Source: Bacteroidota bacterium
GTDB taxonomy: Bacteria > Bacteroidota > Bacteroidia > UKL13-3
Assembly (NCBI GenBank): GCA_947507965.1
Contig: CANNQU010000015.1
Coordinates: 1-52,889 of the forward strand
Direction: 5' to 3'
DNA: 52,889 nucleotides
In this document: positions 24,396 to 31,570 of the stretch, in pieces
Layout: every line of letters begins with the position of its first letter
Position numbering within the stretch: the stretch's first letter is position 1
Made by a program: the position numbers and the translations under genes
Notes under the pieces: model-generated
Database searches by the model: none
The model's input: only the letters and a program-made list of their open reading frames with translations
Told to the model about the DNA's origin: nothing

Positions 24396-25877
24396 ATGAT
24401 TTCAAATCTTGCAGATAAAATAAAAGAGAACCGCATAAAAAATGCGTTCTATATTCAAAAGGTTTTCTACACTTATGCTAGCCTAGAAGAACGGGCGTTA
24501 TCGGTTGCAGCCTATTTATCAGTGCATAACGTGGGAAAATCTCCCGTAGGAATTATTGGCTATGATGCCTTTGAAACGTATGCTGCAATTATTGGAACCA
24601 TACTGGCCGGAACCCCCTTTGTACCCATTCACCCATCGAATCCAAAGGAAAGAAACGCAAGTATTATTGAACAGGCTGAGATCCAAATGGTACTCTGTGC
24701 AACCCCTGAAAACAACGTGGGAAACTTAGTAAATACGAACCTCGTTAAGGTAATATTGGTCTCCGAAATAGCATCGGAGTTAAACCCGCCCATCGCTGCC
24801 ATCAAGCCCAATGAGGTTGCCTATATACTCTTTACTTCGGGCAGTACCGGTGTTCCCAAAGGCGTTCCGATATCCTATGGAAACTTATCTGCCTTCCTCG
24901 ATTCCTTTTTTTCTATGGGTTACGAGATTGATTCAACTGACCGTTTTTTACAAATGTTCGACATCACGTTCGACCTTTCCATCATGTCCTATCTCGCGCC
25001 TTTGCTTCGAGGTGCCTGTGTTTATACGGTTCCTTTTAACGCCGTTAAATATATGTACATCTATGAATTGTTGGAGGAGCAGAAGCTCACCTTTACTCTT
25101 ATGGTGCCATCCATTTTATCCTATCTGCGCCCTTATTTCCCTGAAATAGAGTTGCCTCATCTAAAATATTCTCTGTTTTGTGGTGAAGCCCTTTATGTGG
25201 ATATTGCAAAAGAATGGAAACAATGTTTACCCCTTGCGAAACTTCAAAATGTATATGGCCCTACCGAAGCCACCATATTTTGCCTATCCTACGATTGCCT
25301 TGAGAACATAAAAGAAAACAATGGAATGATATGCATCGGTAAGCCGATGAAAAACTGCATTACGCTTATTGTGGACGACAACCATGAACCCACCAACGGC
25401 AAGGGGGAACTTTGCTTAGGAGGCCAGCAGGTAACTTCAGGATATATTAAAAACGAGGAGAAAAATAGTGATTCCTTCTTTTACTATAATAACGAACGAT
25501 ATTATAGAACCGGTGACCTCACGTTACAAGATGCTGATGGTGATATAATGTATGCCGGGAGAACTGACTATCAGGTAAAAGTAATGGGTGGCTTTAGGGT
25601 GGAATTAAATGAAATTGAACACCATGCCAGGGTGTGCACGGGGTTGGCCGGGGTTGCTGCCGTGGCTGTTCCTAACCATATCGGGATCTCGCAAATATAT
25701 TTGTTTTTGGAAGCTTTTGACGACGATGATTCGGTAGTTTTTAACTATCTCAGGCAGCAAATGCCGGAATATATGATTCCTAGCGCAATTTTTTCGATAC
25801 CCCAATTTCCACTCAATGCGAATGGTAAAATTGATCGTAAGAAATTGGAAGAAATGACGATTCAACAACAACGATAA
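24396..25877 (+). CDS. DltA-like amino-acid adenylating enzyme (D-alanine-carrier-protein ligase type)
   Basis: Activates an amino acid as its adenylate and loads it on a carrier protein. The 493-aa protein has every adenylation core motif: FTSGSTGVPKG (146-156), YGPTEAT (287-293), YRTGDL (370-375), GRTDYQVKVMGGFRVELNEIE (from 388) and NANGKID with the catalytic Lys at 478. FDLSIM (192-197) corresponds to FDLSVM of DltA, whose Asp binds the amino group. FCGEA (261-265) keeps the Cys that in DltA lines the D-alanine pocket. No condensation or carrier domain is fused. First gene of the envelope-acylation operon; the GNAT starts one base after its stop. D-Ala is the leading substrate guess; Gly or another small amino acid is possible. 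Confidence 0.85.
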   Translation: MISNLADKIKENRIKNAFYIQKVFYTYASLEERALSVAAYLSVHNVGKSPVGIIGYDAFETYAAIIGTILAGTPFVPIHPSNPKERNASIIEQAEIQMVLCATPENNVGNLVNTNLVKVILVSEIASELNPPIAAIKPNEVAYILFTSGSTGVPKGVPISYGNLSAFLDSFFSMGYEIDSTDRFLQMFDITFDLSIMSYLAPLLRGACVYTVPFNAVKYMYIYELLEEQKLTFTLMVPSILSYLRPYFPEIELPHLKYSLFCGEALYVDIAKEWKQCLPLAKLQNVYGPTEATIFCLSYDCLENIKENNGMICIGKPMKNCITLIVDDNHEPTNGKGELCLGGQQVTSGYIKNEEKNSDSFFYYNNERYYRTGDLTLQDADGDIMYAGRTDYQVKVMGGFRVELNEIEHHARVCTGLAGVAAVAVPNHIGISQIYLFLEAFDDDDSVVFNYLRQQMPEYMIPSAIFSIPQFPLNANGKIDRKKLEEMTIQQQR

Positions 25878-26531
25878 ATGAATTTTATAATAAAAGAAGC
25901 GACCGAAGAAGACCTCCCATTTCTTGTTGAAGCGATAATCAACGCTGAAAGAAGTGGAACCCAGACCTTGAGTTATGAGAAACTTTTTGAGTTAGATGAG
26001 CAACAGGTAATAAATAACCTAAGTAAAATTCTGGCAGAAGACATAACCGGTCAAGAACTTTGTATAAGCGATTTTCTAATTGCATGGTTCGATGAGGAGA
26101 GGGCCGCCGCTATCTGCAGCTGGATTGAAGGTGAAGAAGGAAGCAGCGCCATTTTGAAGTCGAATGTATTAATGTTCGGCTTTGGTAAAGAGGCCTTCGC
26201 AAGAGTACTCCATAAAGCGGCCCTATTGGAACCGTTGAATATGACTAGAGAAGCGGGTGCACTTCAGTTGGAATCGGTATATGTAACCAACAAATATAGA
26301 GGCCAGGGGGTAGTAAACCTCCTTATTCTCGCCCATATAAACAAACAACAATCGAGAAAGCGAAGGCTAAAAAAAGTACAAATTATTCTGGCAAAAGACA
26401 ATGAGAATGCATTAAAAGCTTATATTAAGGCCGGGTTTGCTACCGTGTTGGAAAAATATCAAACAAATGCAGAAGTTTTGAAATATCTTCCCACGCAAAC
26501 GAAAATCCTGATGGAGAAAAGTATATCGTAA
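25878..26531 (+). CDS. GNAT-family N-acyltransferase
   Basis: A 217-aa GNAT that would transfer an acyl group from CoA (or another carrier) to an amine. Motif A is clear: LESVYVTNKYRGQGVVNLLI at residues 131-150, with the R-G-Q-G-V acetyl-CoA loop, and motif B follows (LAKDNENALKAYIKAGF). The acidic N-terminal half (20-90) is less typical. Its ATG directly follows the TAA of the DltA-like gene, so it belongs to the operon. A canonical dlt operon has no GNAT. It might N-acylate the amino acid to be exported or act on another part of the system; the sequence does not decide. Confidence 0.82.
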   Translation: MNFIIKEATEEDLPFLVEAIINAERSGTQTLSYEKLFELDEQQVINNLSKILAEDITGQELCISDFLIAWFDEERAAAICSWIEGEEGSSAILKSNVLMFGFGKEAFARVLHKAALLEPLNMTREAGALQLESVYVTNKYRGQGVVNLLILAHINKQQSRKRRLKKVQIILAKDNENALKAYIKAGFATVLEKYQTNAEVLKYLPTQTKILMEKSIS

Positions 26532-26561: not shown

Positions 26562-26804
26562 ATGACAGCAGAAGAAATAAAAGAGAAAACCAATAGAATA
26601 TTTAGAAAAGTTTTTAATGACGACTCTTTGGTTATCTATAACGAGATGACCGCTAATGAGGTTGAAAAATGGGACTCCCTCAACCACCTGGTAATGATAA
26701 CTACTATAGAGGAGGAGTTTGGAATCAAGATAAAACTAAAAGAACTAATCGCGATGAAAAATGTAGGTCATCTTTTAGAAACCATTGCATCGAAACAACC
26801 ATGA
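26562..26804 (+). CDS. Acyl carrier protein (DltC-like)
   Basis: A stand-alone 80-aa carrier protein. The phosphopantetheine site is S39 in EKWDSLNHL, followed by the usual helix (VMITTIEEEFGIKIKLKEL) and a second helix pair. It is the natural acceptor for the amino acid activated by the enzyme two genes upstream. Its stop overlaps the start of the next gene by four bases (ATGA), a sign of translational coupling. It is not the fatty-acid AcpP: the site is WDSLNHL instead of DSLD, which is common in envelope-modification carriers. Confidence 0.88.
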   Translation: MTAEEIKEKTNRIFRKVFNDDSLVIYNEMTANEVEKWDSLNHLVMITTIEEEFGIKIKLKELIAMKNVGHLLETIASKQP

Positions 26805-28267
26805 AAAAATATGGATTTCAGGCTTTAATGATCCTTGTATTGCTTGATTTAGCCTTCGTGTTAATGGCAGCAGTAAACCCTAAGGTAAAATTATGGGGTA
26901 ACGAAGAGCACAGTGTAAATTTTCATTTCTTCAGCCTTCAAAATATGTTTTCCAGCGACACTACTTTAGTTTCGAATTTAAAAATAGATTTATTGGCCGA
27001 CAACCTGATTACGAATGACACGTTAAAAATTTACAAACTCAAAAACAATGCATTACTCGATTCTGCTTTTTTAGCACTACCCAATGACACCCTCAAAGAC
27101 ACTTCCTTTAACTGCATTATAAACCCAAATCATGACGGTGTTTTAGCTCTTGACAATTTTTTTAAAGCCTTAATTGACGAACGTAATTTGAAGCTAATAC
27201 GTATTGCACATTATGGCGATTCGCAACTGGAGGGTGATCGGATTACCTCTGAAATAAGAAAAAATATACAAGCAAAATTTGGAGGCTCCGGAACCGGGTA
27301 TATCCCCATTGACGACTTGGCTAGTTGTGCCAGTTATAGCAGAGAAAACTCCGATGGCTGGATTCGATATAATGTATTTAACAACAAATTTAAAAAGCAC
27401 AATTCGTACGGTATCAGTGGCAATACATTTCGTTTTTCAAGTGAGGAAGATGAATCGGGTAACACCCATAGCGCAACCGTTTCCTATGCTTTATCCAAGG
27501 GTGTTTCGTATCAAAAAATGACCTTGCTCTATGGCCGCGCTCCGAATGGCTTCACGGTAAAATGCTTTAACACGTCAAACAACAGTTTATTGTGTACCAT
27601 GAGCATACCTGCCACTGAATCTACCGGCCTAACAACGCTAAAATTAACATCGATTCCTTCGAATTTTAGACTTGAATTTACGTCAAGCAACGGCCCCGAC
27701 CTCTATGGCATTCAACTGGATAGTTATACCGGAATAACCATTGATAATTATGCTATCAGGGGACATTCGGGCGATGGACTTTTGCTTATCAATCAGAATT
27801 TCCTTTCGAAACAACTAAGAGAAACAAACACACGACTAATTATTTTTGAATTCGGCAATAATATGGTGCCGTATCTGAAATCGGAGAAGCAGTGCGAAAA
27901 ATATGAAGACCTCTTTTATAAACTCTTTAAGAAATTCAAAGAGGCTGCGCCAGAGGCAAGTGTTTTAGTTATAGGCAATGGCGACATGGGCTATCGGGCG
28001 GGTGGAGTGGCACAATCGTACAAGTATGTGAGAGGGTTAAACACCGTACTAAAAAATGCAGCGCTAAAGTCAAACAGCGCCTTTTGGAATTTACTTGATA
28101 ATATGGGTGGCGACAACTCCATTGTGATATGGAATAAAAAAGGGTTAGCTACCCTCGATGGGCATCTTACTCCGAAAGGTCAAAAGATCATGTCGAATCT
28201 AATATTTAAAGCTATTATGGTGGAATATAATAGCTTCGTTTTAAGAAATTTTTATACAAAAAAATAA
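26801..28267 (+). CDS. Membrane-anchored SGNH-fold protein (DltD/PatB-like role proposed)
   Basis: The 488-aa product starts at the ATG overlapping the carrier-protein stop. One N-terminal hydrophobic segment (residues 7-25) should anchor it in the inner membrane with the rest in the periplasm. The SGNH elements are visible: HYGDSQLEGDR with nucleophile S141, EFGNNM in the third block, and LDGHLTPKG near 452-460 supplying the Asp/His pair. A central beta-rich insertion (about 190-320) carries KMTLLYGRAPNGF. Such proteins work with MBOAT partners to place or remove acyl groups on envelope polymers. Acyltransferase versus esterase activity cannot be told apart from sequence. Confidence 0.75.
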   Translation: MKKYGFQALMILVLLDLAFVLMAAVNPKVKLWGNEEHSVNFHFFSLQNMFSSDTTLVSNLKIDLLADNLITNDTLKIYKLKNNALLDSAFLALPNDTLKDTSFNCIINPNHDGVLALDNFFKALIDERNLKLIRIAHYGDSQLEGDRITSEIRKNIQAKFGGSGTGYIPIDDLASCASYSRENSDGWIRYNVFNNKFKKHNSYGISGNTFRFSSEEDESGNTHSATVSYALSKGVSYQKMTLLYGRAPNGFTVKCFNTSNNSLLCTMSIPATESTGLTTLKLTSIPSNFRLEFTSSNGPDLYGIQLDSYTGITIDNYAIRGHSGDGLLLINQNFLSKQLRETNTRLIIFEFGNNMVPYLKSEKQCEKYEDLFYKLFKKFKEAAPEASVLVIGNGDMGYRAGGVAQSYKYVRGLNTVLKNAALKSNSAFWNLLDNMGGDNSIVIWNKKGLATLDGHLTPKGQKIMSNLIFKAIMVEYNSFVLRNFYTKK

Positions 28268-28331: not shown

Positions 28332-30089
28332 ATGAGAAAATTAGCAGGTTTCCGTTTAATAATTATAGTACTTGCCTTATCTGCGGCATTCTCAGGCTTA
28401 TCACAAAGCAACAAGATAACGCCAAAAGACTCTGCCTACATAAAAAGTTCGATCCAATACAATAAATATTATCCTTTCATCGACTACAAAAACAATTTTG
28501 TGGAATGGTCAGACACCCTAGCAATAAATCACTTTTATGAATCTCTGAAAAATTCTGGAGAAAAAAAAGTACGTGTGCTTCATATCGGAGACTCCCATGT
28601 TCAAGCTGATATATTCACAGGCTATATTCGTGACCAAATTCAAAATATATTTGGTGCAGGAGGACGTGGCTTTATTTTCCCTTATGCTGCTGCTGGCACC
28701 CATTCGGCTTACGACTACCGCTCGTATTCCACTGGAAACTGGAATGGACTACGAAACATTCAGAACGAAGAATTACACGATATGGGTATAAGTGGGGCCA
28801 CCGTATGGACCGCTGATCCGAATGCTTCACTTCGATTTGTTTTTCAATATGAAACCTTAAAACCTTCCTTCCGTAAAGTAAAAATATGGTGCAAAAAAGG
28901 AGACGATGCTTTTGATCTTATCGTTCGTTATAGTTCCCTAGAAGAGGAGATTTTTGTAAAAACGAATACCGATAGCAACTTGTCGTATGTCAGCTTCTTA
29001 ATACCTGCAGCATCTGAGACTTTTGAAATCTCGATGTTTGCTTCCGACTCTTTACAAACTAATTTTGAATGTTATGGCGTTGAATTTGAAACCGACGAAG
29101 ACCACGGTATAGAATACAACAGTGTGGGAATTAACGGGGCTGGTTTCAACCATTTACTTCACGAAAATTTATTCGTAAAACAAATAAAAGATTTGAAACC
29201 CGACTTGGTGATTGTTGATATGGGAGCTAACGATTACTACCTGGGAAGTCTCGACTGGAATAGTTTTGAAACCAACCTCAACAAAATAGTGGATGAAATA
29301 AGAGAGGCCTCAGCTGAAACATCGATTATCTTATCGTGCTCACAGGATATCTATCGGAGGGGAATCAATGTAGTAGGAACACAGAATCACGCACAAATCA
29401 TAAAAAAAGTTGCCTATGAAAAAAGATGTGCCTATTATAACTATTTCAAAGTGGCCGGAGGGCAGTACTCCATGTATCAATGGCGTAAATATGGCCTCGC
29501 CAATAAAGACTTTGTGCATCTCGGTGCTGCTGGATATTATGTCAAAGGATCGCTTATTTTAAATGGGATATTAAATTCCTATGTTAAATACCTTGGCTCG
29601 AACAATCGCTCACTCAACACGGAAGATGGGGTTAACTATAATCTTACAGATTCGATATTTACCTACCGCGATTCTATTTTGGTAGAAACCTATTCGATAG
29701 AAAATGACAATACCAAGTTAAAAACTTTTTACAAAGTAAAGAAGGGAGAAACGGTAACCTCAATAGCTAAAAAATTCAAGGTTGCCGTAATAGAAATTAA
29801 AGATTGGAACGAGCTTAGTAGTAATTACTTGAAATATGGACAGTTATTGATTTTGTATGTAGATAAGCCCAAACCGGCTACCGTAAATAAGAATTCGGCT
29901 GCAATTAAATCATCCACTTCCGTTATTAAACACAAAGTAAAATACGGTGACACCATGTGGGGTATAGCTACCCATTATGGGGTTACCATGACACAGATAA
30001 GAGCCTGGAATGCCATGAAGAACAATACCATTAAGCCGGGAAAAATTTTAATCATAAAAGTACCTATTAAAAATAAAAAACACGGATGA
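28332..30089 (+). CDS. Exported SGNH-fold protein with two C-terminal LysM repeats
   Basis: The 585-aa product has a signal peptide (LIIIVLALSAAFSGLSQ), an SGNH domain (HIGDSHVQAD with S88; DMGANDYYLG at 296-305; KDFVHLG with D393 and H396) with a beta insertion at about 150-255, and two LysM repeats (about 467-511, FYKVKKGETVTSIAKKF; about 533-577, KHKVKYGDTMWGIATHYG). LysM binds N-acetylglucosamine polymers, so the active domain should be held on peptidoglycan. It resembles the preceding SGNH protein in layout, suggesting duplication with division of labour. Its stop overlaps the MBOAT start by four bases. Confidence 0.82.
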   Translation: MRKLAGFRLIIIVLALSAAFSGLSQSNKITPKDSAYIKSSIQYNKYYPFIDYKNNFVEWSDTLAINHFYESLKNSGEKKVRVLHIGDSHVQADIFTGYIRDQIQNIFGAGGRGFIFPYAAAGTHSAYDYRSYSTGNWNGLRNIQNEELHDMGISGATVWTADPNASLRFVFQYETLKPSFRKVKIWCKKGDDAFDLIVRYSSLEEEIFVKTNTDSNLSYVSFLIPAASETFEISMFASDSLQTNFECYGVEFETDEDHGIEYNSVGINGAGFNHLLHENLFVKQIKDLKPDLVIVDMGANDYYLGSLDWNSFETNLNKIVDEIREASAETSIILSCSQDIYRRGINVVGTQNHAQIIKKVAYEKRCAYYNYFKVAGGQYSMYQWRKYGLANKDFVHLGAAGYYVKGSLILNGILNSYVKYLGSNNRSLNTEDGVNYNLTDSIFTYRDSILVETYSIENDNTKLKTFYKVKKGETVTSIAKKFKVAVIEIKDWNELSSNYLKYGQLLILYVDKPKPATVNKNSAAIKSSTSVIKHKVKYGDTMWGIATHYGVTMTQIRAWNAMKNNTIKPGKILIIKVPIKNKKHG

Positions 30090-31570
30090 TGAATACTTTT
30101 ATTGAATATTTTAAATACTCCAAAGACCATCTCCTGGTCTATAACTCCGTGGCTTTCTTCGGCTTATTTACTTTTTTTTATTTGCTCTTTCTTCTGGCCT
30201 CAAAAAAAATACCTGTCCGGAATATTCTTTTGTTGGCATTCAGTCTCTTCTTTTATTACCGGTTAAGTGGGCTCTTTGTTGTTTTGATGTGTTTTATAGC
30301 TGCATCCGATTACGTAATTGGAAGAATAATACTTGCCACAAAAAATGAACGAGTGAAAGTCAGATTTCTTATGCTCTCCATTTTCATTAGTGTTGGAAGT
30401 TTACTTTACTTTAAATATACAGGATTTATTCTCGATTTGATAAATGCAATTTTCCAAACAGAAATAAAAGCACCGGCCTTCTCTTTGTTAATGCCCATTG
30501 GAATTTCTTTTTATGTTTTTAAAACCCTCTCTTATATCTTCGATTGTTATAATGAGGTGATTGAAAAACCGGAGAAAAACTATCTCACTTATTTATTGTA
30601 TGTTTCCTTTTTCCCTAACATTCTAGCCGGTCCTATTGCCAAAGCGCGCCACCTACTACCACAGTTTAATTCGCCTACACTGATTACAAAGGATTCGATG
30701 AGTAGAGGATTTTTCTTGATCATGCTTGGCATCGTTAAAAAATACCTTATAGCCGATTTTCTATGGAACAACTTCATTGAACGAGTTTTCAACGCTCCTA
30801 CCCTCTTCTCCGGATTGGAAAACTGGATAGCCATGTATATGGCTGCTATCCAGTTCTATTATGATTTTTCGGGTTATACCGACCTGGTTCTGGGCATTTC
30901 GTTGTTATTAGGATTCGAAATACAAAACAACTTCAATCGACCTTTTTTAGCTCAAAACGTAACCGACTTATGGAGGCGTTGGCATATCACACTCTCCACA
31001 TGGCTTAGCGAATATGTTTTTACGCCCCTCAATTATTCTTTAAGGAAATACAAAAAGCCAGGAGCCGTTTTTGCGAGCATTCTAACCTTTGTTATTTCAG
31101 GCCTTTGGCATGGCCCTAAACTAACCTACGTGCTCTGGGGAACCTTGCACGGAATGGCAATTGGCTGGGATGTAGCATCTCAGAACTGGCGTACCTATTG
31201 GAAAAAATTGATTCCCGCTTCGGGGTATAAATTCATCAGCATTTTTATAACATTTCATTTCATTGCTTTTACCATTGTACTTTTCGACGCAAAGGATATT
31301 CGTTACGCTTTCGATATGTATTCGATGATGTTCACCAAAACAGCGGTATCGTTATTTGGCCAGTGGCTTGGCGTTTATTGGAGTGAGTTCCTCATTTTTG
31401 CAGGGGCCTTGTTTATTCATTTTACACCTTCTTCATTTAAAGAAACACTCATCAAACGATTTCGCAATTTACATCTCCTGGCGAAAGCACTACTAATTTT
31501 CTTGGTTATTATTTTTGTTTTCCAATTTTATAGTGCCGAAACTCAGAATTTCATTTACTTGAAATTTTAA
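30086..31570 (+). CDS. MBOAT-family acyl exporter/transferase (AlgI/DltB/PatA type)
   Basis: A 494-aa polytopic membrane O-acyltransferase that passes an acyl group from a cytoplasmic carrier to the periplasmic face. Motifs: PIGISFYVFKTLSYI (137-151), FFPNILAGPIAKA (174-186), FNRPFLAQNVTDLWRRWHITL (from 283) and the catalytic H342 in ISGLWHG. About a dozen hydrophobic segments. The protein ends ETQNFIYLKF; the final F-I-Y-x-x-F resembles the C-terminal motif of DltX, whose Tyr accepts D-alanine in Gram-positive systems. Here the motif would be fused to the MBOAT. Last gene of the operon, 84 bases before cmk, which has its own promoter. Confidence 0.9.
   Translation: MMNTFIEYFKYSKDHLLVYNSVAFFGLFTFFYLLFLLASKKIPVRNILLLAFSLFFYYRLSGLFVVLMCFIAASDYVIGRIILATKNERVKVRFLMLSIFISVGSLLYFKYTGFILDLINAIFQTEIKAPAFSLLMPIGISFYVFKTLSYIFDCYNEVIEKPEKNYLTYLLYVSFFPNILAGPIAKARHLLPQFNSPTLITKDSMSRGFFLIMLGIVKKYLIADFLWNNFIERVFNAPTLFSGLENWIAMYMAAIQFYYDFSGYTDLVLGISLLLGFEIQNNFNRPFLAQNVTDLWRRWHITLSTWLSEYVFTPLNYSLRKYKKPGAVFASILTFVISGLWHGPKLTYVLWGTLHGMAIGWDVASQNWRTYWKKLIPASGYKFISIFITFHFIAFTIVLFDAKDIRYAFDMYSMMFTKTAVSLFGQWLGVYWSEFLIFAGALFIHFTPSSFKETLIKRFRNLHLLAKALLIFLVIIFVFQFYSAETQNFIYLKF

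Follow-up and report, generated by a model that had tools for sequence, protein, structure and literature searches.

The closest described systems are Dlt, PatA-PatB-Ape1 and the AlgI/WssH-type acetylation of polysaccharides. The available sections of PMC12148441 describe an FXYXXF motif that is borne by DltX in Dlt and that is fused to the C-terminus of PatA-type MBOATs, where DltX is absent. In PatA of C. jejuni the tyrosine of this motif is auto-acetylated from acetyl-CoA, and PatA of N. gonorrhoeae ends in FIYANF, its acetylated tail peptide being the donor for PatB (PMC12148441). The same sections state that non-Dlt MBOAT-SGNH pathways have no carrier protein because they use acyl-CoA (PMC12148441). 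Under the current scheme a fused shuttle is tied to acyl-CoA and a separate DltX to a carrier. We analysed a stretch of 52,889 nucleotides from an uncultured Bacteroidota bacterium (hereafter the window), in which these two traits appear to come apart.

The first-pass annotation of the window had proposed that an MBOAT carries a fused DltX-like acyl-shuttle tyrosine. This reading is sound in outline, as both the identity of the motif and the fusion hold, but it is not new: the available sections of PMC12148441 already describe the fused tyrosine shuttle, and the proposed mechanism is the published one. The annotation overlooked that a ligase, a GNAT and a carrier protein share the operon of the MBOAT, and a carrier-fed version of the relay is the part worth pursuing. 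In the literature searched we found no prior report of carrier-linked fused-tail MBOATs; Schultz et al. 2023 (Nature Microbiology), reportedly the original acyl-shuttle paper, might mention them.

The operon is a tight cluster on the forward strand, in the order DltA-like ligase, GNAT, carrier protein, SGNH1, SGNH2 and MBOAT. The amino-acid adenylating ligase (24396-25877, 493 aa) has 210.8 bits to Pfam AMP-binding and, among the named NCBIfam families, comes nearest to DltA (TIGR01734, 293.9 bits, below the cut-off of 559.85). The GNAT acetyltransferase (25878-26531, 217 aa) reaches 23.6 bits with Pfam Acetyltransf_1 (cut-off 20.7). Its family is rare, with members in 3 of 395 phylum genomes and at eight loci in wider genome contigs, several of which adjoin a ligase and a carrier, and the comparison with solved structures returned nothing useful (best E 0.034). 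The carrier protein (26562-26804, 80 aa) scores 25 bits with NCBIfam acyl carrier models, which is under the cut-off. It contains a WDSL motif, invariant in 5/5, with a phosphopantetheine-type Ser39, and is predicted to be a phosphopantetheine-serine carrier. The two SGNH genes, SGNH1 (26795-28267, 490 aa, with an N-terminal helix) and SGNH2 (28332-30089, 585 aa; Pfam Lipase_GDSL_2 49.3 bits), lie immediately upstream of the MBOAT. The last gene encodes the DltB-like MBOAT (30086-31570, 494 aa; Pfam MBOAT 86.6 bits), which scores 174.9 bits with the DltB equivalog TIGR04091, below its cut-off of 375.

We consider it probable that these genes encode a carrier-fed, DltX-less relay with a fused tyrosine tail. 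The conservation of the motif, the make-up of the operon, the absence of DltX, the predicted folds of the MBOAT and SGNH1 and the association between loop and carrier are results of this analysis; the chemical steps, docking, cargo and target would be as follows. The ligase would activate a small amino acid and load it on the carrier protein, where the GNAT may N-acetylate it. Docking of the loaded carrier would take place at the MBOAT, on the cytoplasmic helix found where CoA-type enzymes have their LGG[NS] loop. The MBOAT, with His342 as its putative catalytic residue by homology, would let the acyl group travel along its tunnel and reach Tyr491 in the FIYLKF tail that it carries. The next acceptor would be the serine of an SGNH protein, with SGNH2 and its LysM domains as the most likely partner, and this protein would form the ester on an envelope glycan, most likely peptidoglycan. 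SGNH1, with its Ape1 fold, may either share in the transfer or remove the ester.

Reading of the ORF confirmed that the MBOAT ends in FIYLKF. Its C-terminus is YSAETQNFIYLKF followed by the stop codon and closes with NFIYLKF. Bases 31529-31570 hold codons 482-494 and the stop, and the acyl-shuttle hexapeptide occupies 31550-31567 (forward strand), with Tyr491 as the acceptor proposed from the tail sequence and its conservation among relatives. As a bare pattern, F-x-Y-x-x-F before a stop is at background in the genome (58 + 53 matches versus 46 + 59 for the reversed control), so the evidence for the tail rests on position and conservation instead. Both argue for more than a chance motif.

The C-terminal motif ends both MBOATs of the genome (2/2). 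Of 106 distinct Bacteroidota MBOATs, drawn from relatives and the phylum, 105 terminate in the hexapeptide [FPN]-[IVL]-Y-x-[QKRE]-F; the remaining one (L168) is truncated where its sequence stretch stops. Tyr491 and Phe494 are invariant in the 105 complete relatives, and so are His342 and His300. Alignment of C-termini for F-x-Y-x-x-F, proposed earlier as a check, upheld the tyrosine and the last phenylalanine; the first is not universal, being Pro or Asn in 14/105. The last ten residues, whose variability had been named as an argument against the tail, divide into four that vary and six that are conserved. The mean frequency of the commonest residue is 0.92 in the six motif columns, 0.36 across residues 402-482 and 0.52 across the whole protein. 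A second set of MBOATs had the F-I-Y-x-x-F C-terminus in 41/41, and a third ended in Y-x-x-F in 26/29, the other three, all from one genus, having FIYT[DE]Y. Among the named MBOATs of a plasmid collection 16/20 carried the motif end, and the remaining four were two DltB, one protein with FLYYRY and one without a tail.

Two observations on tails stand by themselves. The three MBOATs ending in FIYT[DE]Y (L282, L284 and L285) are solitary and loop-less, and neither a carrier nor an SGNH relative was recognised near them. At L135 and L151 we noticed a tandem pair of loop-bearing MBOAT genes, each ending in DIQPFIYFQF.

The first-pass annotation had proposed that no separate DltX is needed. A search of the genome with PF12459 (DltX) gave no match, while the same search was positive in B. 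subtilis and L. lactis, which rules out a hidden separate DltX elsewhere in the genome. The largest intergenic gap in the operon is about 65 bp, so there is no room for a DltX gene.

Both the MBOAT fold and the conserved His are present in the product of 30086-31570. The AlphaFold2 model (pLDDT 90.1) matches DltB 6bug with a Z of 28.9 across model residues 5-417. Beyond this DltB-like core the model has two further helices (432-446 and 464-482), and the tail itself is modelled with low confidence (pLDDT 51-58). The net charge around the last helix is +3 before and -1 after it. The charge before exceeds that after in 68/105 relatives, which is a weak signal across the set, and the asymmetry in sequence would weakly favour an outside location of the tail. 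The other MBOAT in this genome (C6) belongs to the loop-bearing type and has another gene context, and an explanation through this paralogue was dropped for these reasons.

It could be argued that the MBOAT is an ordinary acetyl-CoA-fed enzyme of the PatA/AlgI type and that the ligase, GNAT and carrier serve an unrelated pathway next door. We regard this as improbable. Its motif and fold do match those of PatA-type MBOATs, and among relatives an SGNH-SGNH-MBOAT block free of ligase and carrier is the commoner arrangement. However, the carrier-less copies of this block keep the LGG[NS] loop, and the MBOAT of the window is without it. The full order of six genes is found not only at L031 and L032, in the genus of the window, but recurs at L281 and L283 in another Bacteroidota family (the carrier of L281 was missed among predicted ORFs and recovered by translating the gap). 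Furthermore, most carrier-type MBOATs have a carrier directly upstream, at 0-150 bp, alongside several different loading enzymes. A point on the acetyl-CoA side is L157, which lies close to the window's MBOAT in the tree and belongs to its sub-clade; it lacks the loop, and no carrier was recognised in the 40 kb around it.

The distribution of the loop supports a carrier-fed MBOAT in more detail. In carrier-less relatives [LIM]GG[NS] follows a WH...DYLY stretch, apart from the exceptions given below; at this position the carrier-type MBOATs of Bacteroidota have a glycine-free P-[LIVM]-x-x-x-x-R. Sequence comparisons of MBOATs place the replacement in the window at residues 313-325 (TPLNYSLRKYKKP; 31022-31060, forward strand), of which 313-320 align opposite residues 302-309 of the DltB helix HC. 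According to the available sections of PMC11035591, DltC in solved complexes contacts Met302, Val305, Ile306 and Met309 of this helix and forms salt bridges with Lys312 and Arg317.

A carrier was present in the operon for 42/48 loop-less MBOATs (33/35 in the first set, 4/7 in a later sample and 5/6 among named records), two DltB being counted as positive by the DltC annotated in their records, as the carrier HMM built here misses true DltC. None of 148 rows of loop-bearing MBOATs had its own carrier (0/71 within 4 kb, 0/41, 0/22 within 1.5 kb and 0/14). These rows include about ten repeats, with L273 and L276 from the 29-MBOAT sample duplicating loci of the 41-MBOAT set, and the lone carrier within 4 kb among the 71 belongs to a neighbouring operon. 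Two of the searches were queried with an alignment of carrier-type MBOATs, so the sampling favours the carrier class; the Pfam-family search listed mostly AlgI-like MBOATs, and 40 stretches were taken of many places. All rows besides the plasmid-collection records are from Bacteroidota.

The six exceptions, which lack the loop but also a nearby carrier, are L157, L175, L282, L284, L285 and Tistrella L307. The pairing is also seen outside Bacteroidota. In Sinorhizobium meliloti a loop-less MBOAT with the tail FLYQGF has a carrier 1.3 kb downstream, and in Nonomuraea a loop-less MBOAT with the tail FLYYRY has one next door. On a Sulfitobacter pontiacus plasmid (L306:3764-4843) we observed a loop-less MBOAT of 359 aa without the FXYXXF tail, situated beside a ligase-fused carrier domain; no ORF ending in FXYXXF was seen in this stretch.

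Within Bacteroidota the carrier-type MBOATs do not form one group in the tree but occupy two or more positions. The first tree gave three independent pairs (p 0.5). The wider tree showed six loop changes and six independent pairs, of which about four were concordant, none opposed and two without difference (p 0.125). It took every second row of the 41-MBOAT set and omitted eight rows of the third set that were already in the first; the counts above are those before this thinning, and several long branches are unsure. Since p is 0.125 after tree correction, we do not claim the link between loop and carrier as statistically shown. The association is consistent and structurally sensible, but is not significant after tree correction and hence not statistically secured against shared descent. 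It also offers a rule open to testing, by which an LGG[NS] loop would indicate acyl-CoA as the donor and its replacement at the site where DltB binds DltC would indicate a carrier.

The system in the window is neither Dlt nor PatA, because ligase, GNAT and carrier share an operon with a fused-tail MBOAT. With PatA-PatB-Ape1, as presented in the available sections of PMC12148441, it has in common the fused C-terminal FXYXXF tail, extra C-terminal helices that the model predicts past the DltB fold, and SGNH partners including one with an Ape1-like fold. PatA uses acetyl-CoA and no carrier (PMC12148441), whereas here a ligase, a GNAT and a carrier are present and the loop is replaced. The PatA-like MBOAT of N. 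gonorrhoeae keeps an LGGS loop and has no carrier in a 9 kb stretch. With Dlt the operon shares a ligase, a carrier protein, a DltB-fold MBOAT without the LGG loop and an SGNH protein. It departs from Dlt in lacking DltX, in bearing the tyrosine tail on the MBOAT itself, in having SGNH proteins that are not DltD (neither matched the DltD family in the profile search), in the added GNAT, and in a ligase and an MBOAT that score under the DltA and DltB equivalog cut-offs. Dlt D-alanylates teichoic acid, which Bacteroidota are not known to make. The AlgI/WssH-type systems resemble it in the fused tail motif and the MBOAT fold, but no carrier lies beside any of the 14 loop-bearing plasmid-collection MBOATs (0/14), one of which adjoins an AlgF gene. 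The PatA/AlgI kind is marked by an acyl-CoA donor and no carrier; the operon of the window has a carrier and a ligase, and its MBOAT has no LGG loop.

Related loci differ mainly in how the carrier might be loaded. L060 and L071 have the order ligase, GNAT, carrier, MBOAT and SGNH. In many members of the phylum an AMP-ligase, usually preceded by SGNH1, stands directly upstream of carrier and MBOAT, and the two such ligases tested were fatty acyl-AMP ligase-like (e.g. PRK09192 299 bits, below the cut-off of 600). At L072, L174 and L289 an FkbH-like gene is found beside MBOAT and carrier. We tentatively suggest, as a possibility and no stronger than that, that bacteria outside Firmicutes add carrier-derived non-acetyl groups to peptidoglycan, or to some other glycan that LysM binds. 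In the system of the window the group would be an N-acetylated small amino acid, and relatives with FAAL-like or FkbH-like loaders would transfer fatty acyl or glyceryl groups. An exchangeable loading module would feed a common relay with fused tyrosine, and one cytoplasmic MBOAT loop would decide between CoA and carrier. If carrier-fed fused relays are real, a single MBOAT design could bring many different acyl groups from carriers to the cell surface, and the surface-ester chemistry of Bacteroidota would be wider than O-acetylation.

Three loci with unusual gene content were also recorded. L280:5872-9684 has carrier, SGNH1, SGNH2 and MBOAT behind a flavin amine oxidoreductase and a thiamine-pyrophosphate enzyme, with no preceding ligase; these two enzymes are perhaps an alternative route to a carrier-bound acyl group. 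At L091:8517-14847 a carrier and an FkbH-like protein accompany DltA-like ligases and four members of the rare GNAT family, and L090:2504-9360 has two such GNATs with DltA-like ligases and a carrier; no MBOAT was seen among the mapped ORFs of either.

Regarding the cargo, the pocket of the ligase consists of D L M L L C V I F K, at positions tentatively assigned from the GrsA/DltA motifs. The pocket is identical in 8/12 ligases of this family, and all 12 have the Lys, the Cys and the Asp that is assigned to the amino group. This conservation points to a small alpha-amino acid as the predicted cargo. The GNAT gene has the ligase on one side and the carrier on the other, which suggests that acetylation of the amino group would take place on the carrier. 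It is rather unlikely, in our estimate, that a plain amino acid such as D-alanine is moved as in Dlt and that the GNAT acts elsewhere, e.g. in clearing mis-loaded carrier. DltA is the nearest named family to the ligase, and the ligases retain in 12/12 the Cys at the DltA C269 position, which according to the available sections of PMC4176424 favours D-alanine in DltA. However, the GNAT lies between ligase and carrier in the window and at L031, L032, L060, L071, L084, L281 and L283. Moreover, pocket positions 278, 299, 322, 330 and 331 are unlike the residues that we take DltA to have there.

Regarding the acceptor, peptidoglycan is the most likely candidate because SGNH1 has an Ape1 fold and SGNH2 has C-terminal LysM domains. 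The AlphaFold2 model of SGNH1 (pLDDT 82.4, residues 53-104 disordered) has as its best Foldseek hit 4k3u (TM 0.82 by target length), with 8gld at 0.73, that is the fold of the peptidoglycan O-acetylesterase Ape1. Pfam barely detects this protein. Ser143 and His457 are invariant in 24/24, with Asp455 as the partner acid (Glu in L031 and L032), and the catalytic residues together with the model make it a putative Ape1/PatB-type SGNH. SGNH2 carries two C-terminal LysM (98.1 bits), and two LysM are also found in SGNH2 of L031, L280, L281, L283 and L157. Of four carrier-less SGNH2 proteins three lack LysM, and the fourth shows just one weak match, located internally. That the target is an exopolysaccharide or outer-membrane glycan instead of peptidoglycan seems doubtful to us. 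LysM is also able to bind other GlcNAc polymers, which would allow such a target. Exopolysaccharides are moreover given in the available sections of PMC12148441 as substrates of AlgI-, WssH- and cellulose-type MBOAT-SGNH systems. Against this, the predicted fold nearest to SGNH1 is that of Ape1 and the LysM pair of SGNH2 is C-terminal. As a minor observation on SGNH1, the acid and the histidine at residues 455-457 are spaced as D-G-H (E-G-H in L031 and L032), compared with D-x-x-H in most other SGNH1 proteins.
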